A stretch of 22,858 bases of DNA from a virus: positions 1 to 22,858 of the IMG/VR virus record IMGVR_UViG_3300020202_000217; one strand, written 5' to 3'. The translations under genes and the position numbers were made by a program. Of the stretch, positions 1,242 to 21,785 are shown piece by piece. The stretch's first letter is position 1; each line of letters opens with the position of its first letter. A model generated the notes under the pieces. That model searched no databases and was not told the DNA's origin. It saw nothing but the letters and a program-made list of their open reading frames with translations.

Positions 1242-2782
1242 CAGTTATCCAACTGCGGGTAGTTGCCCGGAGCCTGCCGATATGCCAGCGCCGTGCGGGC
1301 AGCGAAAGCCATGTTCTTCGTCGCGGTGGTTGCCGAAGAACGGACCTGGAAGTTGAGCCCTGACCGGCCATAGGGGCCCAGGTAGAGGCTGTTGATATCT
1401 CCTGTCAGAGATACCCGGCGGGGAGTTGACAGAGCGTCTTTGCTGCGCTTGAAGTTCGTCTGCGAAATTGTCGTGAGAATCGGCGAGAGGATTCCAAACG
1501 ACGCCCAGTCATAGAGAGTGCCCGTCGCCTCGGTAAACGGAGCCGACGCCGTCAGAGACACCGCGGGGCAGAGGGTCGCGTCGTAGGTGCCTTTGATCCC
1601 CAGGATTGCTTGCGACTCCGGCGTGGTGGCGGGAATGGCGTTCGCGGAGTTGGCTGAGAACGCCTGGAGCCACGAGATTATGGCCGACACGAGGCTCGTC
1701 ACGCCCTGGTGGGCGTAGATGCCTCGGAGAGCCCTGGCGAAATTCACGGTCGTGATGTTCGTCGGCACCGTCCAGGTTGCCGTGCCGGTGCCAAGACTGG
1801 TTGCCGCGACGTACGTCTCCCTGGGCGCCGTGGTCGATAGCGCGCTCTGAAGCTCGCCCGTCGTTGCGCTCCTGGCACCGGAGACGGCGAACGCCAGAAG
1901 CTCTGACATCATCGTCGTCAGGGTGGCCTGCGTCGGGCCCGAGTAGTGGGCCGTAGCAGCCGCGTCCCCGAAGGCCGTCTCCGCGCCAACAACGTCAGCC
2001 AACTCGCCGAGAAACCAGAGGGCGATGACGTCGGAGATGAGGTACGAGTGAACCATCACGGCGGTACCGGTGTTCACGCCGTTCGCCACGCCGCCGATGT
2101 GGTATGGGCTCCCGCCCACGGGGAAGACTGTTTGCGAGGCGATGTGCAGGTCACCGCACTGCATGTGACGGAGGAACGTCGCGCACCGCTTAGCGCCGTC
2201 CAGATACCGGCCTTCCCGCGTGACGCTGTAGGCCTTCACGAGCGCGGCCCCGCAAACGGCAACGACGCTCGACAGGTAGGCGGTGCTGCCGGTGAAGGCA
2301 ACCCCCCCGTACCTCGGGTCATCCACGGTTCCGCTGGGAGAGATACCGGTCGGCGATCCGAACTGCTGCGTCAGGATGAACGTACAGCACGTGTCGAGCA
2401 CATCCCTTGCCGTCTCGAGCCAGCGGGCCGGCCTGAGCCCCTGGCTGACGGTCTCAGCCATGTAAATGGCCGTCCACGCTGCCGCATCGGTCGACGTGTT
2501 CGCCGCTGCTTCTGTCAGGAGGTAGTTGAAAACATCCGCCTCCGCCCATTGGTACGTGGGGGTGTGGGCAAGCGGCTTCGGCCATCGGTTCGGCCGGACT
2601 CGAACAGGTTTCGCCTTGGCGTTGAACTTAGAAATCTGGAGAGCGGTTAGCCCGGGGGCGTCGTCCGGGCAGGCCCACTTGAGCTCGCCGATTGGACGGA
2701 GGGCAGAGAAGTGGAACCGATGCCCGCAGATATCGCAGATTCGGAGGTAATCACCCTTGGCGTAGCCCGTGTCCGTCGCCAT
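1241..2782 (-). CDS. Structural protein with N-terminal zinc ribbon and alpha-helical repeat domain
   Basis: 513 residues from ATG 2782, which overlaps the upstream stop (TGATG). A longer frame reaches 2944, but its extra 54 codons lie inside the upstream beta-helix gene and read as shadow sequence. Residues 14-42 hold CDICG..., a loop with SALRP, then WACPDD. This is the short phage zinc ribbon of the form CxxCG...L..vCxDD often found in structural gene clusters. Cysteines 16, 19 and 38 are visible; the fourth ligand is unclear (His21 or His24). From about residue 85 the protein consists of alternating helices with small side chains, e.g. WLETARDVLDTCCTFILTQQ and YLSSVVAVCGAALVKAY, suggesting paired hairpins as in alpha/alpha-toroid proteins. 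No catalytic residues were recognised. It is probably a virion or tail protein; the function is unknown. Confidence 0.7.
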   Translation of the reverse strand: MATDTGYAKGDYLRICDICGHRFHFSALRPIGELKWACPDDAPGLTALQISKFNAKAKPVRVRPNRWPKPLAHTPTYQWAEADVFNYLLTEAAANTSTDAAAWTAIYMAETVSQGLRPARWLETARDVLDTCCTFILTQQFGSPTGISPSGTVDDPRYGGVAFTGSTAYLSSVVAVCGAALVKAYSVTREGRYLDGAKRCATFLRHMQCGDLHIASQTVFPVGGSPYHIGGVANGVNTGTAVMVHSYLISDVIALWFLGELADVVGAETAFGDAAATAHYSGPTQATLTTMMSELLAFAVSGARSATTGELQSALSTTAPRETYVAATSLGTGTATWTVPTNITTVNFARALRGIYAHQGVTSLVSAIISWLQAFSANSANAIPATTPESQAILGIKGTYDATLCPAVSLTASAPFTEATGTLYDWASFGILSPILTTISQTNFKRSKDALSTPRRVSLTGDINSLYLGPYGRSGLNFQVRSSATTATKNMAFAARTALAYRQAPGNYPQLDN

Positions 2783-3579
2783 CACACCGCCCAATCCAGC
2801 CGTGAATCCCCGGTGGCGTCGGAAATCTGGACGACCCCCGTGCTCCCCGTGGGCAGAAGGATGTGAGAGCCGATGCGCTGGTAGATGTTCGTCGCGCGAA
2901 GGCGAGTGACCGCTGCCGTTCCCTTGAAGGCGTAGTCGGACCAAGGGAACGACCCTCCATCGAAGGTCACTTCGTCCATGGTCAGGCCAGCAAGGGCGTT
3001 GATCACCTCGACGGCTACGGCTGGCGTCGCGGCAGTGGCGGTGAAGGTCGACCCGGTCAGCCTGGCGTCGCTGGCTCCGGTGATATAGGAGACGGACCGG
3101 GTCGTGTCAGAGGCTCCGCAGTCGAAAACCAGGTTCTGGAGGATGGACCCTGCGGCGGCGATTCGGATTCTCGCCGTCGGGGCGGCGGTGGAGGCGGGGA
3201 AGCGGACGTTGTCCACGAGGACCCCGGCCGCCGTGACGTCGAGCATTGCAACGGCTCCGCCGCAGGTCAGGCGCGGAAGACTAGAACCAGAGCCTTCGCC
3301 GACGATGCTCAGGCCGGCCTTGTTGAGCGTGATGGCGCTGGAAATCGTCTCGGCGTGGCTCGCGAGGAGGACGATCGTGTCTCCGGCGGAGGCGTTCGTG
3401 TGGGCCTGGGAGAGTGTCAGGAGCGGCTTTGTGCGCTCGGTGCCGGCGTTCGAGTCCGAAGCTCCGGTGACAGCGTTCCCGACGTAGTAGTAGTTTCCGC
3501 TCTGGTAGGTGTTGTCTAAGATCGCCAGGTCCGCCCCGGTCGACCCGCCGGCTCCGTTGACGTAGGACTTGATTGCCAT
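2782..3579 (-). CDS. Right-handed beta-helix virion protein (paralogue 1)
   Basis: 265 residues from ATG 3579, preceded by the ribosome site AGGAG at good spacing. After a short N-terminal arm (about 1-50), the chain is a succession of short beta strands with Gly, Ala, Thr and Asn turns, typical of a pectin-lyase-like beta-helix. Residues about 85-125 read AGDTIVLLASHAETISSAIT followed by AGLSIVGEGSG, a motif seen in beta-helix proteins near phage capsid genes. The same motif occurs in the gene at 3681-4631, so the two look like diverged copies. No acidic catalytic cluster was recognised, so a structural or surface-binding role on the capsid or tail is more likely than hydrolysis. The gene is coupled to the downstream zinc-ribbon gene by a TGATG overlap. 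Confidence 0.7.
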   Translation of the reverse strand: MAIKSYVNGAGGSTGADLAILDNTYQSGNYYYVGNAVTGASDSNAGTERTKPLLTLSQAHTNASAGDTIVLLASHAETISSAITLNKAGLSIVGEGSGSSLPRLTCGGAVAMLDVTAAGVLVDNVRFPASTAAPTARIRIAAAGSILQNLVFDCGASDTTRSVSYITGASDARLTGSTFTATAATPAVAVEVINALAGLTMDEVTFDGGSFPWSDYAFKGTAAVTRLRATNIYQRIGSHILLPTGSTGVVQISDATGDSRLDWAV

Positions 3580-3680: not shown

Positions 3681-4631
3681 TCACACTGACACCGGGGTCA
3701 TCGCGGCGCCGTTCTCGCCGTTGTTGTTGACCGTGTAGCAGTCGTAGAACTGGATGTTCGCTGGGGTCGTGAAGCCTGCGAGGGTGGCGTTGTCCAGGAT
3801 TCCCCAGCCACACTGATGGACCTGGCCCGTGCAGCCAGCCAGGCCAGTGACCGCAGAGACAGAGCTGGCGAGCTGGTTCTGAATGACGTTCCGCCGCCAG
3901 TTGATGCCCAGAGATGCAGTGGTCAGGAACCGGACGATTCCGACGTTCACGCCCGAAGAAGCCCCGGAGATGAAGCAGTCCTCCATGGTCATGTAGTCCG
4001 CGCCAACGAGCTGCATGAACGTCGTTCCCGTCGCGGCAGCCACCTCAGCCCGGCAGTAGTTCCGGCGGAAGGAGAAGTCATCTCCAGCCGCCGTGGTGGT
4101 GATTCCGATGGTCACGTTTTGGTTGGCGGCGAAGCCGAAGAAAACGCGGCAGTCGGTAATCGAGCACCCGGCCGCGGAAACCGTGATGGGAGCAGCGACC
4201 GTCAGCGCCGTCCCAGCAGCGTGCGGACCGGCGAGATATAGGTTGCAGTTCCGAATCGCGAACGAGGCGACGTCCATGAGAATGGTCGAGGTAGCGGCCG
4301 TCCAGGTGAAGGTCGCCCGGTTGTCGCCAGTGCCCGTGCCGATGACCTCGACCCCGGCCTTGATGTTCGACCACTTGTCTGCCGCGTCGATGTTTTCGGC
4401 GTGCCCAGGTAGACACACGATTCTGTCGCCCCGGTTGGACCGACAGACGTTGAGAGCGGCGTTCACCGAAGTGAAGAACCCGCCCGGGGACGGCGAGTAC
4501 ATCCCCGGCGGCAGGTTCGACAAGGCCGCCGCCCCGGAGTGATGAACGTAGTGGATCATCCCCCCCGTTGGGACGATGACGAAACCGGGGAAGACCTCGG
4601 TCGGCCCCTGCGTGTTGTAGGACGTCAGCAT
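3681..4631 (-). CDS. Right-handed beta-helix virion protein (paralogue 2)
   Basis: 316 residues from ATG 4631, with AAGGAG five bases upstream. Residues about 67-100 read RGDRIVCLPGHAENIDAADK and then GVEVIGTGTGDNRATFTW, the same pattern as in the neighbouring 265-residue protein. The rest is a run of strands with regularly spaced Asn, Cys and Gly (RNCNLYLAG, TDCRVFFG, EDCFISG, YDCYTVNNNG), typical rungs of a beta-helix. It lies nine bases after the major capsid gene, so it may decorate the capsid or be part of the tail. Cysteines recur in the rungs, perhaps as a stacked ladder. No active-site motif was recognised. Confidence 0.7.
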   Translation of the reverse strand: MLTSYNTQGPTEVFPGFVIVPTGGMIHYVHHSGAAALSNLPPGMYSPSPGGFFTSVNAALNVCRSNRGDRIVCLPGHAENIDAADKWSNIKAGVEVIGTGTGDNRATFTWTAATSTILMDVASFAIRNCNLYLAGPHAAGTALTVAAPITVSAAGCSITDCRVFFGFAANQNVTIGITTTAAGDDFSFRRNYCRAEVAAATGTTFMQLVGADYMTMEDCFISGASSGVNVGIVRFLTTASLGINWRRNVIQNQLASSVSAVTGLAGCTGQVHQCGWGILDNATLAGFTTPANIQFYDCYTVNNNGENGAAMTPVSV

Positions 4632-4640
4632 GACCGCTCC

Positions 4641-5702
4641 TTACGACTGGTTGCCGATGAAGTAGCGCCAGTTGGACACGCCCTTCGTCCACCGAGCCGA
4701 GCCCGTGTGCTGTTCGGTCTCGTTCTCCTGCATGTTTCCGGCGCGAAAACGAGGCTTCCGTCGCCAGATGAACATCGCCCCCCGCTTCACGTCGGTGACG
4801 CCGAAGACGTTGGTGGTCGAGGACATGAACGGCACCGAGACCGGGGTCGAGGACAGCTCGCCCTTGAGCGCGTTGATCGTATGGTTCGAGGTGTCGTCCT
4901 TCTGCTCGCTCTTGAGAATCTCTTTGAACCGCCATTTCTGGTTCGTCGGGCAGACGATCTTGAGGAGCTTGATCGACCGGATGAACCCGTTGGTGCCGGG
5001 CATCTTCTCGGCCGCGATGAGCATCGACTGGACCATCGTGTTCGACGGGGCTACCGGCGGGTCGATGACGTTCGATACCGTCGCCCCACCACGGATGACG
5101 TGGGAGGTGCTGCACACCGCCACCTGGTCACCCGACAAACCGGCGTCCGTCGAGCCGGCGAAGGCATCGTTGAGGAGGCCGACCGCGTCGTAGTCCTGGG
5201 TCAGCGTGCAAGTATTCTGGAGCAGCCGGACGGCGTCGTAAATCTCCGGGTACTGCGAGTCCTCTTTGAGCTCCTCGGGGATGATGAGGCGCTTCGAGAA
5301 CTTCTTCGCCTCGTAGCGCTTGGTGATGCCCTCCCCGTAGTCGTCGAGGTCCAGGTCGGCGCCTTCGTCGGTCTCACCCCAGAGACCGGGCTCGACCAAC
5401 TCGACGTCGTCGTAGAACTTCTTGTTCGTCGACTTCTCTTGGAGGTACTGCTTCCAGACGGGCTCGTTCTTCGCAGCCTCATCGGTCCAAATGGCCCCCA
5501 GAATCTTGTGATAGACGCTGGGGAAGTTCCCGGTGTACACGCTTGCCAGGACACTGTCAGGAACGGCAATGGCGACGATGGCTGCGTACAGCCGAGGCCA
5601 GCGCTTGTAGATGAAACGCGCGACGGGCCTTGAAAGGACGGCGAGGGTCCCAATGAAGGTGACCGTTGCCAGGAGGAGGACGATTCCAAACAGAGTGTCC
5701 AT
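4641..5702 (-). CDS. Major capsid protein (HK97 fold, Mu gpT-like) with hydrophobic N-terminal extension
   Basis: 353 residues. From about residue 60 the pattern matches Mu gpT-like major head proteins: FPSVYHKIL, then FYDDVELVEPGLWGETDEG, then ITKRYEAKKFSKRLIIPEEL, an alpha-helical spine with NTCTLTQDYDAVGLLNDAF, and a C-terminal FIWRRKPRFRAGNM. In place of the usual short N-arm, residues 1-52 carry two hydrophobic stretches (about 4-23 and 38-48) separated by a basic loop (RPVARFIYKRWPR). The ATG at 5702 is the only good start: no other ATG lies in this frame before the capsid domain. The leader GGATCTGACCATGG closely matches the start-associated sequence of the plus-strand small genes. It lies two bases after the decoration-like gene. 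The protein would form the icosahedral shell; whether the N-terminal piece is cleaved is not visible. Confidence 0.85.
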   Translation of the reverse strand: MDTLFGIVLLLATVTFIGTLAVLSRPVARFIYKRWPRLYAAIVAIAVPDSVLASVYTGNFPSVYHKILGAIWTDEAAKNEPVWKQYLQEKSTNKKFYDDVELVEPGLWGETDEGADLDLDDYGEGITKRYEAKKFSKRLIIPEELKEDSQYPEIYDAVRLLQNTCTLTQDYDAVGLLNDAFAGSTDAGLSGDQVAVCSTSHVIRGGATVSNVIDPPVAPSNTMVQSMLIAAEKMPGTNGFIRSIKLLKIVCPTNQKWRFKEILKSEQKDDTSNHTINALKGELSSTPVSVPFMSSTTNVFGVTDVKRGAMFIWRRKPRFRAGNMQENETEQHTGSARWTKGVSNWRYFIGNQS

Positions 5703-6979: not shown

Positions 6980-7915
6980 TTATGACCTTCCGCTTCGCAC
7001 CGCGTCCCGCACCGCCGCCTTCAGGGTCTGCATGTCCAGGCCCGTCCCGTTGGCGAGCTGCGGAGGGATTTCGATCTCCGTCGGCCCTTCTCCACGGTAC
7101 GGAGCCCCCCTCGAGGGAGGAGCGGCGTATAGAGCCCTGGTCCGCTGGGATGGGGGCGCCGGCGGGGGATTCATCCCGTATTGCGGTCCCAGAGTCGCCG
7201 CGATGTGGGAGAGGGCTTCCCGGTCTGTGTCGATGGTGTCCGGACGCCCTTGGACCTCCACGAGGTAGTTCTTGTAGGTTCTGGCCTTCTGGGCCAACTG
7301 CGTATACCGCTGGTCGAGAACCCATGGGTACTCGGCCTCGATGATGGGTCGCCTCCCGCCCGCATACGGGTCATGCGGCTGATTTTGCTGCTGCCGGATC
7401 TCCTCCGCCCTCATCCGAGCATAATCCTGGGCGTTGACGATGCGCTGCTCTTGCCGACGAAGCTCGTTGTAGCGCTTGTATCCCCGCTTGTCGTCCTGCT
7501 CGATTAGCCGTAGCTCGGCCTCAAGCTGTTCCTCGATATCGGCCAGTTTCGCTTCGAACGGGTCCGCGGAATTTGGGTTGTGCTGGGGCTGGGAGCGGAG
7601 CCGCTCAACCTCCTGCTGCAACTGCTGGAATCGGCGGTCGGAGTCCTCCTGCATCCGGCGTATCCGGGCGTCGTATTCGGCCTTCTCTTGCTGCCAAGCC
7701 TTCGATTCCCGGTGCTCTTTCCCGCGGGCCGCTTTCTTTTCTCCCCACTTGCCGGTCTTCGGGTCGCGGGGCTGTTCGCCCTGGGGGCGTTCGGCAGGAG
7801 TTTCTTCCTGCTCGTCGTCTTCCTCGTCCAGGCGAACCCGAACGGGCTCCTCCTGCTCGGGTAGCTCGACGCGCTCTAGCTGCTCGGTCTCTTCGGGATT
7901 CTCTTCTTTGGGCAT
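6980..7915 (-). CDS. Capsid scaffolding-like protein
   Basis: 311 residues from ATG 7915, with AGGAGGAG just upstream. Residues 1-60 are very acidic (many Glu, Asp and Gln). Residues about 65-190 form long charged helices with coiled-coil character (RRFQQLQQEVERLRSQ, FEAKLADIEEQLEAELRLIE, YKRYNELRRQEQRIVNAQDY). A Pro-rich stretch follows, and the C-terminus is a short basic helix (MQTLKAAVRDAVRSGRS). This acidic-coil-basic-tail layout, between portal and capsid genes, is typical of phage scaffolding proteins, whose C-terminal basic helix binds the capsid subunit. No protease motif is seen. Identification is by composition and place, since scaffolds share little sequence. Confidence 0.7.
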   Translation of the reverse strand: MPKEENPEETEQLERVELPEQEEPVRVRLDEEDDEQEETPAERPQGEQPRDPKTGKWGEKKAARGKEHRESKAWQQEKAEYDARIRRMQEDSDRRFQQLQQEVERLRSQPQHNPNSADPFEAKLADIEEQLEAELRLIEQDDKRGYKRYNELRRQEQRIVNAQDYARMRAEEIRQQQNQPHDPYAGGRRPIIEAEYPWVLDQRYTQLAQKARTYKNYLVEVQGRPDTIDTDREALSHIAATLGPQYGMNPPPAPPSQRTRALYAAPPSRGAPYRGEGPTEIEIPPQLANGTGLDMQTLKAAVRDAVRSGRS

Positions 7916-7923
7916 GGCTCCTC

Positions 7924-8505
7924 CTATCGTTCCTGTGAGGCAATCCGGCGGGCGGTCTCGGCCTCCGCCGGGCTATTCGTACTGGCCGCGAGAGCAAGCA
8001 GCTTCTGCTTCCGCCCGTTCAAGAGCTTCTTCGAGAGACACCAACGCCCCGTCTTCTCGTCGAGGACGTACTTGGCGTTCCCCTTGGACAACTCGACCCG
8101 CAAATCGTCCGACCCGATGATGTCCCGGTCCTTGAGGATCAAGAATTCGCTCTTGAGCTCCTTGCTCGCCGTCTTGTCGGTGGACTCCCAGCCGGCGAAG
8201 CGGGCGAAGATCACAACGTCCCCCTCCTGGATTCCGTTCGAGTAGAGGACGTCCCTGGCTCTCGGCCCCATGGCCATCAGAATCCCCTTCACGTGCGGGC
8301 TCTGCGAGTCCTCGGGAACAATTAGCCCTCCCTTCGACACAGTCAGCGGAGGCAGTCTCCAGACGACGCAGTTGTTGTCCATCGGCTGAAAGGTCGGTGG
8401 CTCAACTCCGACCTCCTTGCACCGAAGTCGGAGCTTCTCCGTCGCGTAGTACGGCTTCGCTCGATAGAGCGACTCCATCGGGGAAAGTTGTAGCGCCTTA
8501 CTCAT
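7924..8505 (-). CDS. GroES-like (Cpn10) co-chaperonin with N- and C-terminal extensions
   Basis: 193 residues from ATG 8505, with AGGAG seven bases upstream. Residues about 40-131 match the Cpn10 plan: a first strand (NNCVVWRLPP), a mobile-loop region with the GroEL-contact tripeptide (SKGGLIVPEDSQSP, cf. GGIVL in GroES), VKGILMAMGPRAR, EGDVVIFARFAGWES and FLILKDRDIIGS, the last corresponding to the DIL end of GroES. It has an extra 40 residues at the N-terminus and about 60 at the C-terminus (basic, ending in a helix with AEAETARRIA). GroES proteins are about 97 residues, so this is a large variant. T4 gp31 is a known phage GroES analogue used for capsid protein folding; the location between portal and scaffold suggests the same job here with host GroEL. 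No GroEL gene is in the window. Confidence 0.85.
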   Translation of the reverse strand: MSKALQLSPMESLYRAKPYYATEKLRLRCKEVGVEPPTFQPMDNNCVVWRLPPLTVSKGGLIVPEDSQSPHVKGILMAMGPRARDVLYSNGIQEGDVVIFARFAGWESTDKTASKELKSEFLILKDRDIIGSDDLRVELSKGNAKYVLDEKTGRWCLSKKLLNGRKQKLLALAASTNSPAEAETARRIASQER

Positions 8506-8719
8506 CCTCTTGCTCCTTGGGGGTGATGTCCTTGATGAACTCTTCGAAGTCGGTGACCCGTTGCTCGGCCCTTCTCACGTCCTCAAGCTGGCCCTGACGG
8601 GACTGGGTTCGGAGGCGCACCTTGGCCGCCTCGAGTTTCCGGGCTAGGTGCAGGCGGAGCTTCTCCACCAGCGGGTCCTGGTCCCATTCCGGGACCTCGT
8701 CCTCCGTTAGCCATTCCAT
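8498..8719 (-). CDS. Small charged helical protein overlapping the portal gene
   Basis: 73 residues from ATG 8719, with a strong ribosome site AGGAG six bases upstream, inside the portal coding sequence. The first 137 bases overlap the portal 3' end in another frame; the end overlaps the GroES-like start by eight bases. The sequence (WLTEDEVPEWDQDP, then VEKLRLHLARKLEAAKVRLR, then AEQRVTDFEEFIKDI) is a plausible amphipathic two-helix protein. Small helical genes right after the portal are common in related head clusters. The function is unknown; it may be an assembly factor. Confidence 0.65.
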   Translation of the reverse strand: MEWLTEDEVPEWDQDPLVEKLRLHLARKLEAAKVRLRTQSRQGQLEDVRRAEQRVTDFEEFIKDITPKEQEDE

Positions 8720-10922
8720 TCTGCGCTCCTGTGATGTCTTCCCCAGACTGCGTCTCTTGCAGGTAGATAGCTGCGACGTGGGCTCGCTCGTGTCTGTCGA
8801 GCATCTGCTTCCCCGTCGAAGACATCTTTTCGAGGAACGGCGAGTTCCTGAACTCGACGATTTTCCCGAGGTGGAGCAAGTGGTCGTCGTCCGGCAATAC
8901 CGGATGGTCCTGTTCGTTCAGGAACCCCGCATTCTCGTTCTCCTGAGACATGGGAGACGGAGGGGGCGGAGGCTGGGGTGGTTGGCCCATGGCCGCGATG
9001 TAGTCCGGCTTCTCCGCGGCGACGAAAATCTGGGCGAAGGCGAAGTAAACCAGGAGCTGATTCTGAGCCAGCGGGGAATTCAGAATCATCGCCGCGAAGT
9101 CTTTCGCGTCGGCGATTCTCTCCGGCTTGGAAATCATCCGCGCGTCGGCGGTGAACTCCAAGTGGACGTCTTCGACGTAGTCGGCCCTGCCGACTTTCTC
9201 CTGGACGACCTGCTGCTGCCCTGGTTGCCCGGGGACATCCTCGGCGAACGGGAAATACTCGTACTCGTCGAGGTAGATGGAGTTGCCGTGGGCAATTAAC
9301 TTCAGCTCGTACTTTAGGGGGTCCAGGTAGATTCGGGTCATGACGCTGATGAGCGCCATGGCGTTCGAATTCCTGACCATCATCCCCTTAGCCGTCTCGT
9401 TCGAAGCTCCTCTTTCTCCTGAGAGAATGTCGGCGTTGGCGGCAATCTCCGAGTTCTGCTCCAGCTTCTCGACGACTTTCATCAACCCTTCGGAGGGGGG
9501 TTGCTTTTCAAGGACCTTGATGCCTTTGTCGAGAACCTCTGGGTCCAACTCCGTCTCGATGAACTTCCCGTGATTCATCTGGACGTCGCCGCGCTTCTCC
9601 TTCGTCCCTCGGGCGAGGAAGCCGCAGAACATGTTGTAGAACTTGGCCGAGAGCATGTACTCCGCGGCCAGGGTGTTCGCGAGCTCGTTCGACCCCTCGA
9701 GCAAGTACCCGACTCCCAGCCCGTAGAATCCAGAGGGGTTCGGGAAAAGGCGGAAGTGGATGATGTTGTGGAGCGTCTGCATCCGGACCGGACGCGGAGG
9801 TTTCGGAGGCTCGAGCGTCATTCCGGGAGGAAGAGTGGTCGTCATGGTCCCCGTGGACTTGACCGCAGCGTCGAAGGCCCGCATCTCCTCGTCGAAACGG
9901 GCTTTGTCTACCGGGTCCGGTTCCTCGCGAATCGTGACGGCGAGGGGCTTTCTGCTCTGCTTGTCGACCACCAAAATGACCGGCTTGGTTTTGTCGGCCA
10001 GGGGCTTGAGGGCGCCCTTTAGCTCCTTCGGGAACCGTAGCCGAGTGTGTTGCTCGTAGATTTCCCGTTTGGCGTTCTTGTCCTTCTGCTTCGGCGGCTC
10101 TACGCCTTGAATCAGATCTGCCGCCTCCCTGACCGGGCTCTGCTCGTCGAGGCTCTGAGAGGGAAGCGAATCCCCGTCAGTCGTCGACCCCTCTTCTTTT
10201 CCGTCCGGAGGGAAGATGGCTCCGAGATTCGAGTAGTGTCCGGTCTCTACGTACGCCTCCAGCTCCCACCTGGACATCCGGAGCACGCGGGTGATCCGTT
10301 CGACCGTCTTCATCTGGGGATGAACGTCGGTCTCGGTGTAGGAGACGATGATGTCGTCGATGGGGACGTGGTCTACGGCGTGAGTCCGGGCAATCGGGTC
10401 CCAGCGGTAGTGGCGGAAGGTCGAGCCCGCCATGAGCCACGCGAGGATCGAGACCTGATGAGAAGTCCCCCAGTCCGGCATCCGATACCGGAGCTGCCAG
10501 TTCATGTGCTTCTCTACCCTTTGAGCCCTGGGCAAATCCCGGGGGCCCAAGGGTTTGCCTTTGACGATATCTCCCTTGGCTGGAACGACCTGGTCGTAGA
10601 TGCGGGCCCACAGATGCAGGAGGGCCTTGCACATGATGGCGATGTGGGGGGCTTTTGCCCCCTGGGCTGGGTAGCCGAGGTTGGGGACGATGCCGGCGAA
10701 CAGCTTGAGCTGGTTCGCGTAGCGCTTCATGTAGTCGGCGCGACTCTCGTCGTCTTCCTTCGCGTTCGAGATGGCTTTCCTGGCTTCCTTGGCGATCCAA
10801 TCCGGAGCCTCTTGCATGAGGACCGGGAGGATGTTGATCGCATCCAGGGCGTCTTCCGACGGAAGAGACGGCTCTACTTCCTCGTCCGTGCTTGGGTCAG
10901 AACCGTTTCCGGTCTCTTCCAT
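8583..10922 (-). CDS. Portal protein (P22-like)
   Basis: 779 residues from ATG 10922, which overlaps the terminase stop (TGATG); GGAGG lies six bases upstream. A GTG at 10925 would add one residue but is too close to that ribosome site. Portal features include a helical N-terminal region with MKRYANQLKLFAGIV, WILxxG-like LAWLMAGSTFRHYRWDPI (about 161-178), VPIDDIIVSYTETDVHPQM, and the strongly conserved HFRLFPNPSGFYGLGVGYLL followed by EGSNELANTLAAEYMLSAKF (about 389-427). The C-terminus is Pro/Gly/Ala-rich and disordered, in the part that overlaps the next gene. It would form the dodecameric ring through which TerL pumps DNA. The length exceeds P22 gp1 (725) slightly. The module TerL-portal-scaffold-capsid supports the call. 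Confidence 0.9.
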   Translation of the reverse strand: MEETGNGSDPSTDEEVEPSLPSEDALDAINILPVLMQEAPDWIAKEARKAISNAKEDDESRADYMKRYANQLKLFAGIVPNLGYPAQGAKAPHIAIMCKALLHLWARIYDQVVPAKGDIVKGKPLGPRDLPRAQRVEKHMNWQLRYRMPDWGTSHQVSILAWLMAGSTFRHYRWDPIARTHAVDHVPIDDIIVSYTETDVHPQMKTVERITRVLRMSRWELEAYVETGHYSNLGAIFPPDGKEEGSTTDGDSLPSQSLDEQSPVREAADLIQGVEPPKQKDKNAKREIYEQHTRLRFPKELKGALKPLADKTKPVILVVDKQSRKPLAVTIREEPDPVDKARFDEEMRAFDAAVKSTGTMTTTLPPGMTLEPPKPPRPVRMQTLHNIIHFRLFPNPSGFYGLGVGYLLEGSNELANTLAAEYMLSAKFYNMFCGFLARGTKEKRGDVQMNHGKFIETELDPEVLDKGIKVLEKQPPSEGLMKVVEKLEQNSEIAANADILSGERGASNETAKGMMVRNSNAMALISVMTRIYLDPLKYELKLIAHGNSIYLDEYEYFPFAEDVPGQPGQQQVVQEKVGRADYVEDVHLEFTADARMISKPERIADAKDFAAMILNSPLAQNQLLVYFAFAQIFVAAEKPDYIAAMGQPPQPPPPPSPMSQENENAGFLNEQDHPVLPDDDHLLHLGKIVEFRNSPFLEKMSSTGKQMLDRHERAHVAAIYLQETQSGEDITGAQNGMANGGRGPGMGPGPAGGEAPPAPSPETRGGQGAPPNPVPSGPA

Positions 10923-12424
10923 CACCAGCCTCCAGGCGGAACGCCGAGGGCGGCAGTCCTGCCCCTGCGGTATTCGTTCAGGTCGATGACCTCATCGTCG
11001 TATTCGTCCTCGTCAGTCCGCTCTTGCTTGGGCAGGACCCTGTCGAGGCACGCGTACATCGTGTCGTCCCAGCAGTGGTCCTCACCCTTCGTGTCCACGT
11101 CGTTGGGGTCGTTCGGGTCCGTCCGGAGGACCGGAATCGTCTCGATGGGCGCCTTGCACCGCTCCATCCACCGCAAGGCCGGTCGGTCAGGCTCGCCGGG
11201 GTGCAGGGACTTCCTGCGGACGTTGAGGCGACGAACAATCTCAGACGCCCCGTTGAAGCGGTCTTTCCTAGATCGCTTCCAGCGAATCCCACAACTCGCC
11301 ATCACCTTCGCGTAGGACGGGCCGCCGGCCATGTTCTTGTTGAAGGCGTCTTCGTCCATCGGCCCGTTCAGGGTCGACACGTTCGCCTCCTCGTCCCACC
11401 AGCCATAGTGCATCTCTATCTCCCGGATGCGACCAGCGGTCATCTCTGCGTCGTGGTTCCTGACGTAGAGGTTGTGGATGCCGGTAAACCCACCGTCCGC
11501 ATCCACGTACCACCACGTCACTGACGTCGGCGCGGAAGGAGCCGGGTCACACGACCGAAAGACCTTGGCGTTCTTCGGAACGGCGTGATTCGGGACGACG
11601 TGGTACCGGGAGTCCCAGACGTTCGCCAGGAATGCCCCAGGGGTGATCCACCAGTTCCCGTTGAGAATCGCCTCCCGAACTTCAGGACGCTTGTTGAGGA
11701 GCGAAGCTTCGTAGGTTCCAGCAGCGTAGAGGACCGGGTTGTCCTCGAGCTTCGCGGGAATGAAGACCGAGTCGTAGTTGATGATTCTCCCGTCCCGGAG
11801 CTTGGTCTGAATCCGGTAGACGACTTCAGGCTCCCTGTTCTCGATGAACCGCTTTCGAACCCACAGAAGACCAGGCCCGTCCGGGTTCGATGCGGCGCAG
11901 ATTTGGAGCATGTCCTTGAGGACCGGGTCCGTCGTTCGGAGACGGGTATCCATGTACTCCCACTGCGTCTCTGAGAACTCGGTAAGCTCGTCGAAGAAGA
12001 CGTAGGTGTACTCGTTGGACTTGTATTTGTACTTGGAGTTCTCGTTCTCCATGTGGCCGAACTGAAATTTCGCGTCGCCACAGGCGGGAATCGTCCAGAT
12101 GTGATTGTTGACGTTGTAGGTAGCGTCCGGGTCGATGTCCTTGAAGAACTGATGAGAACGGTCGATGGCCTGCTGCAAGTCGGGCATCGTCCGGCGGAGA
12201 TAGAGCCCCCAGGCCTTCGAGGTGGTTATTTCTCCCTTCTCGAACCGGGCCCTCTCGACGGCGAGCTGTTGGCCGAACTTCCCCATCCCGCACAGAGATT
12301 TCCCACCGCCCCCAGCGCCGCCGTAGAAGACAATGCGCTGGGAGGCTTCGAAGAACTTGGTCTGCTGGCCCGGGAAGGGGCCAACAAACCGTCCGTCGTC
12401 CGCTATCTGAGCGGCTACGCTCAC
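10922..12424 (-). CDS. terL: Terminase large subunit (ATPase and nuclease)
   Basis: 500 residues from GTG 12424, which overlaps the preceding stop as GTGA; an AGGAG lies 11 bases upstream. A longer frame runs to 12808, but its first 128 codons lie within the preceding gene and look like shadow. The ATPase domain shows Walker A YGGAGGGGKS (34-43), Walker B YVFFDE (141-146) and the coupling motif ASNP (178-181). The nuclease domain shows acidic residues in SCDPAP (Asp293), NGPMDED (Asp357) and CWDDTMYA (Asp453/454), as in RNase H-like terminases. It would cut concatemeric DNA and power packaging through the portal encoded next. The C-terminal tail is acidic (DEDEYDDEVIDLNEY), a plausible portal-contact region. 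No frame damage is seen. Confidence 0.93.
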   Translation of the reverse strand: MSVAAQIADDGRFVGPFPGQQTKFFEASQRIVFYGGAGGGGKSLCGMGKFGQQLAVERARFEKGEITTSKAWGLYLRRTMPDLQQAIDRSHQFFKDIDPDATYNVNNHIWTIPACGDAKFQFGHMENENSKYKYKSNEYTYVFFDELTEFSETQWEYMDTRLRTTDPVLKDMLQICAASNPDGPGLLWVRKRFIENREPEVVYRIQTKLRDGRIINYDSVFIPAKLEDNPVLYAAGTYEASLLNKRPEVREAILNGNWWITPGAFLANVWDSRYHVVPNHAVPKNAKVFRSCDPAPSAPTSVTWWYVDADGGFTGIHNLYVRNHDAEMTAGRIREIEMHYGWWDEEANVSTLNGPMDEDAFNKNMAGGPSYAKVMASCGIRWKRSRKDRFNGASEIVRRLNVRRKSLHPGEPDRPALRWMERCKAPIETIPVLRTDPNDPNDVDTKGEDHCWDDTMYACLDRVLPKQERTDEDEYDDEVIDLNEYRRGRTAALGVPPGGW

Positions 12425-12747
12425 CCGAGCGTCATCTCCTGACCGAACACGCTCATGACGAGCGAGGTGGCGGCGGATGCGTGCGCCGCAAACACCTCGG
12501 CAGCGTCGAGTATCCAGTTGCCGTAGTGGTCGAGGACCGTGCCGGCCGGAATCGAGTAGGCATCGAAGAGCCTGGTTCCCGCCGCATCCGCTCCAATGCT
12601 CACCGTCAGAGTGACTGCTGAAGCCGTCGGATTTGAGACGTGGATGTGGACGATTCGCGTCTTGGTGAGAGCCGGAACCGTGTAGCGGGTGGCCGTCGTG
12701 TTCCCAAGCTGGGCCGGGCCGTAGAGTCGTTTCCAGGTGGTAGCCAT
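12421..12747 (-). CDS. Small beta-sandwich-like structural protein
   Basis: 108 residues from ATG 12747, with AAGGA seven bases upstream. The pattern MATTWKRLYGPAQLGNTTATR, then YTVPALTKTRIVHIHVSN, TLTVSIGADAAGTRLF, YSIPAGTVLDHYGNWILDA and a final SLVMSVFG is familiar from small phage virion-associated proteins found beside tail fibre genes. It is made almost only of predicted strands with an alternating polar pattern. It sits between the collagen-like fibre gene and TerL, so it may be a fibre-associated or head fibre protein. No enzymatic motif is present. Confidence 0.65.
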   Translation of the reverse strand: MATTWKRLYGPAQLGNTTATRYTVPALTKTRIVHIHVSNPTASAVTLTVSIGADAAGTRLFDAYSIPAGTVLDHYGNWILDAAEVFAAHASAATSLVMSVFGQEMTLG

Positions 12748-12759
12748 TGCGCGTTCCTT

Positions 12760-14133
12760 TCAGGCGGTAAACCGGCCAATCTCCTTCCAGGTCGTGGAGC
12801 CGTCGCATTTCAAGATGAGCCCGGCCCCGGCTGGCGCGGTCCAGTTGGTAGCCCCAGAGAGAGTGATTGCCCCATACCCGGCCGGCGGGGCGATGTTGTG
12901 TCTCACCGTCAGGCCTGAGGTGAAGGTCAGGATAACGACCGCTCCGTTGTGCCAGGCCACGCCACTCGTCTGAATGGCGATTGAATCGATGGTGGTTGTG
13001 CCCGTGATATCGAAGCTGTTGCCGTCGTATCCAAGCTCGATGTTCGTTGCGCTGGCGACGTTCGCACCCTGAGACGTCTCGTGTCGGCCCTGGAACCGAG
13101 ATAACCCGCTCGCGACATGCAGCGTAAACCCCGTAGCGGACGCTCCGTTGATGGTCGCCGGGTCGAGATAGAGGGTCACCGCCTCGGAAATCGCCCCCCC
13201 GCTTGACGTCGAGTAGTTCGCGCCTCGTATCCGCAGCCCCGCAATCAGGGGCACCGTCGCCGTCGTGACCGAAGTGTCTGCTGGGTCAATTGTGACCCAC
13301 TCTCTCGTCACGCCGTCGGTAGCCGTGATACCACCGACGCCAAGCCACACGCTGTCTCTCGTGGCGCTGGCACCGACGGTGAGCACATGACGGGTGCTGA
13401 TTGCGTCTGGCGTGGCCACGATACCCAGCCCAGCATTCGCCAGGAGCTGCACCCCTCGTACCGTCCCTCCGCCACTCGCGAACGAGCCAAAACGGAATAC
13501 GTTGCTACTCCACTCGAGCCTGACCCACTCGTCCCCGACGCCAGCGACGTTGTAAAACGTCTGCCACCAGCCGTTAGCCAGGAACAGCTCCGTGTTGGCG
13601 TTGGCGCCAAGCCCGGCGTTGGTTTTGACTCCCGCGGGTCCGTTTCCGTATGGCACGAGGTCAGGCGCGACGTAGAGCGGGAAGGCGAGCACCGGGTCTC
13701 CGCTGCCGTCGGTGCTTGGTCCGTCAATGTTCGGAGGCCCCATCGGCCCCGTCGCTCCGGTTGCACCTCTCGGCCCGGGAGGGCCTGGGAGAATCGACTC
13801 TTCCCCCGGCTCTCCGTCCATCCCCGGAAACCCACGTGGCCCGGTATCGCCGGTTGCTCCCCGGGGTCCAGGGATCAAAAGCGGCTCCTCGGCGATTCCG
13901 TCGTCCCCCGGCATCCCAGGAAGACCACGTTCACCCTGGGGCCCTCGAGCCCCCGGAGGACCGGGCCACATCATTTCGAAGTCGTCTTCAAAGACCTCGG
14001 TAAACGGAGAGCCCCTTGCCTCCGTGGCGATGCCAGCCGCAATCATCCGCTTTCGAAGGGCGTTGATGAGGGCGAAGACCTCTTTCTCGTCGGAGAGGTT
14101 TTCTTTGAGGGCAGGGGGAAGAGGAGCGACCAC
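12760..14133 (-). CDS. Collagen-like fibre protein
   Basis: 457 residues from GTG 14133, directly after the upstream TAG, with AGGAG upstream. Residues 1-55 are helical. Residues about 57-133 consist of Gly-X-Y triplets ([19 protein letters not shown], then [18 protein letters not shown] and [17 protein letters not shown]), broken twice by acidic or hydrophobic inserts (IAEEPLLI and EESIL). The remainder is beta-rich, and the C-terminus ([11 protein letters not shown]..., [26 protein letters not shown]) matches trimeric fibre tips of many phages. It would form a trimeric collagen-like stalk with a knob, on the tail or on the head. The location upstream of TerL, far from the other tail genes, is unusual. 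Confidence 0.85.
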
Positions 14134-21395: not shown

Positions 21396-21770
21396 CTAGA
21401 AGTCCGGGATGTCGTCGCCCTCGAAGTCCTGGGCGCCTGGGTTGATGTCCCTAGCCCGGGTCTTCGTCTCTGCCTCCCCCCTCGGCCGCGGCGCCTTCTG
21501 ATTGTCCCCTGGCTTGAGCTCCCTCGCCACGAGCTGGAGCTTCCAGTCCTTCTCCCCGTCCCTAGGCTTCCGCATCTGGAGCTCACCCAGGATAGTCACC
21601 GGGTCACCTTGCTTGAGGCCATGTCTCTCGTCGGTGAAGGCCACGACTTCGAAGTAGGATGGGAACTTCCCGGCCATGCAGATCACGTTGGCGAAGCTGA
21701 CCTTGTCGTGGTGCTTCACCCGGGCGATGCGGGCGTTCTCCAGCTTGAACCGTGCGTCTTGTCGCTCCAT
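21396..21770 (-). CDS. ssb: Single-stranded DNA-binding protein (OB fold)
   Basis: 124 residues from ATG 21770, chosen because AAGGA lies six bases before; a GTG at 21785 would add five residues without a ribosome site. The OB-fold pattern is present: FKLENARIARVKHH, VSFANVICMAGKFPSYFEVV, FTDERHGLKQGDPVTILGEL, then DWKLQLVARELKPG. A disordered Pro/Arg/Lys-rich linker leads to an acidic tip (DFEGDDIPDF), as in SSB proteins that recruit partners with DDDIPF. It would coat ssDNA in phage replication or recombination. It is shorter than E. coli SSB (178), but phage versions vary. Neighbours support a replication block. Confidence 0.75.
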   Translation of the reverse strand: MERQDARFKLENARIARVKHHDKVSFANVICMAGKFPSYFEVVAFTDERHGLKQGDPVTILGELQMRKPRDGEKDWKLQLVARELKPGDNQKAPRPRGEAETKTRARDINPGAQDFEGDDIPDF

Positions 21771-21785
21771 GGGCCGTCCTTTCAC

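Follow-up and report, generated by a model that had tools for sequence, protein, structure and literature searches.

Two phage Cpn10 proteins, gp31 of T4 and CocO of RB49, are known from the literature to act with the host GroEL on the capsid protein. The mobile loop of gp31 is 22 residues long, against 16 in the ordinary GroES loop, and its roof loops are missing (PMC6318259); the longer loop and the missing roof give it a larger cage, and its client, gp23, is of approximately 56 kDa (PMC6318259, PMC3012670). In pelagiphages of the HTVC023P type, GroES is a core gene (PMC9599517).

The DNA analyzed here, a viral stretch of 22,858 nucleotides (hereafter, the window), encodes a GroES-type protein of 193 amino acids that resembles gp31 and CocO by analogy. 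It shares with bacterial and mitochondrial GroES/Cpn10 the length of the core, the length of the mobile loop, and the GG-hydrophobic contact motif, but those proteins, of about 95–115 amino acids, have a canonical roof hairpin and lack the arms that flank the core in the window.

The GroES gene and its predicted fold

The gene and its parts are as follows.

7924..8505, minus strand: phage GroES-type co-chaperonin, 193 amino acids, with N- and C-terminal extensions; ATG start, 193 codons
8513..8518, minus strand: Shine-Dalgarno-like AAGGAG, 7 nt 5' of the GroES ATG, read from the sequence
8392..8505, minus strand: N-terminal extension, residues 1–38, with a variable arm (1–22) and a conserved helix (23–32); net charge +3; from alignment and model
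8113..8391, minus strand: Cpn10 core, residues 39–131; exactly 93 aligned residues in 11 of 11 relatives
8299..8346, minus strand: mobile loop, residues 54–69, containing the KGG-hydrophobic triplet; modeled with low confidence
8239..8265, minus strand: predicted helix, residues 81–89, replacing the GroES roof hairpin; the region has 3 residues fewer than its counterpart in Thermus Cpn10
8017..8112, minus strand: C-terminal extension, part 1, residues 132–163, with a helix (133–141) and a beta-hairpin (144–159); from alignment and model
7927..8016, minus strand: C-terminal extension, part 2, residues 164–193; DUF2786-like helical hairpin

The start codon overlaps the stop codon of a preceding gene of 73 amino acids. 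Residues 39–131 match the Pfam Cpn10 profile over positions 2–91 of its 93 (E = 3e-9; 37.2 bits, with a cut-off of 21.1), and the same residues match PHROG 3188, "co-chaperonin GroES" (E = 9e-10). The Cpn10 identity of the ORF is far above chance, and every relative tested, like the window, scores above the curated cut-off. The loop carries the motif SKGGLIVPE; in all 11 aligned homologues the GG is invariant and is followed by a largely hydrophobic triplet. The intact Cpn10 domain with a GGLIVPE contact that the original prediction described is confirmed by these matches, and the extensions, put there at about 40 residues in front and 60 behind, measure 38 and 62 by the Cpn10 boundaries. The loop aligns without gaps to the Cpn10 of Thermus and M. 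leprae and is of ordinary GroES length, not lengthened as in gp31. The roof segment is a few residues shorter than that of Thermus Cpn10 and is helical in the predicted model.

An AlphaFold model built with 11 homologues (pLDDT 78.7, pTM 0.66) replaced an earlier, weaker one built with seven (pLDDT 65). It is a model of the monomer, and its structural comparison concerns mainly residues 31–139; the low confidence of the mobile loop is as expected for a flexible loop. Solved Cpn10 chains are matched with Foldseek E values down to 1.6e-5 and VIA Z up to 9.4, several solved GroES chains superposing at 2.4–2.8 Å over 85–87 residues. T4 gp31 (2cgt) is among the matches (VIA Z 8.1, rmsd 2.2 Å, 77 residues), whereas the next class, the GroES-like folds of alcohol dehydrogenases and similar proteins, reaches a Z of 4.9 or less, well below the Cpn10 matches. 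The predicted monomer has the Cpn10 barrel. By family and by predicted fold, the protein is a genuine Cpn10/GroES. It has the same fold as gp31, the roof region being altered in gp31 and perhaps also here, but gp31 (about 111 residues) has the longer mobile loop, lacks a tail of the window type, and serves a much larger client. The viral structure library is rich in phage GroES, most of those listed being of 83–158 residues.

N- and C-terminal extensions

The end of the C-terminal extension matches DUF2786 (PF10979), residues 167–190 aligning with model positions 7–30 of 40 (E = 8e-5). The score is 22.9 bits in an hmmscan of the whole protein, where the cut-off is 23.9, and 24.9 bits in a DNA search. 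The match recurs in six of seven GroES homologues, with a best E value of 1.3e-7, and exceeds the curated cut-off in five of the eight members with the tail. Across 18 phage records, DUF2786 occurs only in the eight whose GroES is tailed, always at the GroES gene; as background, the search gave a match in one of 14 control genomes. Residues 167–190 are predicted to form a helical hairpin, and what sets this example of DUF2786 apart is its place at the tail end of a GroES. Neither this match nor the minus strand of the gene had been part of the original prediction.

The protein is built in layers. Eleven members share the core, an N-terminal helix, and a short tail; eight have the DUF2786 hairpin, and some have a longer N-terminal arm. 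The distant homologues L041–L043 have the core, the helix, and the short tail, and the profile search found no DUF2786 in them. Within the eight related contigs the arms are about as conserved as the core: compared with the window, L001 is identical at 78 of 93 core and 25 of 30 tail positions, and L014 at 67 of 93 and 21 of 30. Whole-gene dN/dS (Nei-Gojobori) against five relatives is 0.07–0.34, values that are only rough because synonymous sites are close to saturation. Each of the eight tailed members combines a core of net negative charge with two arms of net positive charge. Judged from these sequence comparisons, the arms look functional.

Used alone, the 62-residue tail had no convincing relative among annotated phages. 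The literature on DUF2786, seen at the level of abstracts, is nearly empty and gives no function, and no GroES-DUF2786 fusion is described in the literature surveyed by title, abstract, and term, a survey whose scope lay largely outside the subscription journals. The phage GroES itself is ordinary; what is new is its conserved fusion to DUF2786.

The head operon and its counterparts in other phages

The gene lies in a head operon that reads terminase large subunit, portal, small protein, GroES, presumed scaffold, a 157-amino-acid protein, a 199-amino-acid protein, and major capsid protein, and the same order is seen in the relatives over whatever part of it their contigs cover. The features characterized are as follows.

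10922..12808, minus strand: terminase large subunit, ORF as listed; similarity to relatives starts at about residue 130–140
8583..10922, minus strand: portal (head-to-tail connecting) protein; matched by tblastn (E = 5e-21) with a protein annotated as "head to tail connecting protein"; pI 5.4
8498..8719, minus strand: small acidic protein of 73 amino acids, pI 4.7; start/stop overlap with GroES; weak PHROG 4004 match
6980..7915, minus strand: acidic 311-amino-acid protein, pI 5.2; presumed scaffold, from position and composition
4641..5702, minus strand: major capsid protein; conserved part 301 amino acids, 33.6 kDa; 39.3 kDa from the first ATG

Since the aligned part of the terminase begins only at about residue 130–140, its true start is probably well inside the ORF; distant terminase matches were found in L010 and L011. 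The original prediction placed GroES between portal and scaffold. The portal is supported by tblastn; for the 311-amino-acid protein, which has no family match in Pfam or PHROG, the role of scaffold is deduced from its position and composition. In four relatives a homologue of the 73-amino-acid protein is encoded directly before GroES, and short ORFs occupy the same position in several annotated phages; the protein is a possible partner of the lid. Among the genes of the head operon, GroES is one of the best conserved, behind the capsid protein.

Elsewhere in the window, two genes that follow the capsid gene (2782–3579 and 3681–4631, minus strand) encode proteins partly alike by eye, possibly related to each other and serving as decoration or tail proteins; L001, L028, and L043 also have a similar pair behind their capsid gene. 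A 457-amino-acid protein with collagen-like Gly-X-Y repeats (12760–14133, minus strand) is probably a tail or fiber protein, and a 129-amino-acid ORF (21396–21785, minus strand) resembles, by eye, a single-strand DNA-binding protein.

No match to the window GroES was returned by tblastn against annotated phages, which were linked to the window through similarity of the portal and capsid proteins. Sixteen annotated phages were picked for the similarity of their portal, not by GroES, and every one of them carries a GroES; each of 15 records has exactly one Cpn10. Among the head regions inspected, six have GroES between the portal and capsid genes (those of HTVC023P, ct2os315, the Alcaligenes and Planktothrix phages, DSL-LC04, and Caulobacter phage RW); the exception is Roseobacter phage CRP-901, where it lies elsewhere, at 37.6 kb. 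The proteins of HTVC023P-type pelagiphages (gp36 in HTVC023P), DSL-LC04, Caulobacter phage RW, Planktothrix Pag-Yong1, and Alcaligenes vB_Af_QDWS535 resemble that of the window in having a single-copy Cpn10 core, in their place between portal and pre-capsid genes, in N-terminal extensions in some, and in that no phage GroEL was found alongside them. They differ in their length (about 111–150 amino acids) and low identity to the window protein, and DUF2786 was matched nowhere in their records. The GroES of the Alcaligenes phage (L019, 3528–3869) has a different loop, without the usual GG-hydrophobic motif; to judge from this sequence, GroEL binding may differ there. A search of genome contigs yielded no relative of the window GroES and so no clue to a prophage or host.

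From the 16 of 16 phages, the shared gene order, and the published core gene (PMC9599517), a GroES in the head operon is known biology. The portal-GroES-capsid placement is old, familiar from related aquatic phages, conserved over a broad phage group, and not particular to the window phage.

Candidate roles of the lid and its arms

A search for Cpn60 that gave a match in each of 14 control genomes found none in 14 phage records; this absence counts for six complete genomes and weighs little for the eight metagenomic records, which are fragments. The window too is a fragment, of 22.9 kb, and its phage could carry a GroEL elsewhere. With no phage GroEL found in the 14 records, the host GroEL is the expected partner. 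Given the intact Cpn10 domain, the contact motif, the place in the head operon, and the lack of a detectable phage GroEL, a dedicated lid for host GroEL comparable to gp31, as originally proposed, is the best reading by analogy. We put the probability at about 0.7 that this GroES is a lid on host GroEL that helps to fold head proteins and bears conserved docking arms.

Under this hypothesis, the Cpn10 core would form a lid, presumably heptameric, on host GroEL in late infection and would help to fold head proteins, the major capsid protein being the most likely client. Because GroES is translated within the head operon, the lid would be produced alongside its clients. Two conserved docking arms would stand outside the barrel, one formed by the N-terminal helix and the other by the basic C-terminal tail with its beta-hairpin and DUF2786 hairpin. 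As a guess from charge, their most likely targets would be acidic proteins of the head (scaffold, portal, capsid, or the small protein encoded upstream) or the exterior of GroEL. The arms are basic, whereas the pI is 5.2 for the presumed scaffold, 5.4 for the portal, and 4.7 for the small protein; this contrast makes docking plausible, although charge is weak evidence. That the N-terminal helix and the DUF2786 tail act as a built-in adaptor, tethering GroEL to the scaffold, portal, or capsid protein of the nascent head so that capsid subunits pass straight from cage to procapsid, is a doubtful further step.

The extensions had also been suggested to bind scaffold, which is possible, or to enlarge the chamber. 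In its full form, the idea of enlargement would make the protein a specialized lid of the gp31 kind, in which the extensions, together with a changed roof, give the chamber another shape or a greater volume for a client beyond the reach of host GroES. The short helix modeled in place of the roof hairpin, in a protein that counts gp31, itself without roof loops (PMC6318259), among its structural matches, is consistent with such a lid, but the mobile loop has the ordinary GroES length and not the 22 residues of gp31 (PMC6318259), the roof segment is shortened and not extended, the capsid protein is of only 34–39 kDa and would fit a normal cage, unlike gp23, and a monomer model cannot place the arms in the ring. 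Chamber enlargement was rejected as the leading idea on loop length and capsid protein size, and we regard the specialized lid as rather unlikely; the comparison with gp31 appears to hold for function and not for an enlarged cage.

The position between portal and presumed scaffold, the tight linkage to portal and capsid genes, and the added arms could also suggest that the barrel has been taken over as a ring-forming element of the procapsid, for instance an adaptor between portal and scaffold, and has ceased to work with GroEL. A ring that no longer met GroEL would need neither the hydrophobic triplet that follows the GG in nearly all relatives nor a core fixed at exactly 93 residues, which makes a purely structural role quite unlikely. 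Host GroES would face competition from any protein that mimics it, and the window protein might displace it and shut down host folding instead of aiding that of the phage; a late head operon and conservation together with the capsid genes fit a folding helper better, and we consider regulation or inhibition of host GroEL very improbable.

The preferred reading, a lid on host GroEL with docking arms, leaves the need for a private lid unexplained, the capsid protein being small enough for host GroES. GroES is already known as a core gene in an abundant marine phage group, and a lid whose fusion to another domain is conserved is rarer than the known phage GroES genes. The DUF2786 fusion offers a handle on two questions: why phages with small capsid proteins retain a lid of their own, and to what DUF2786 binds.
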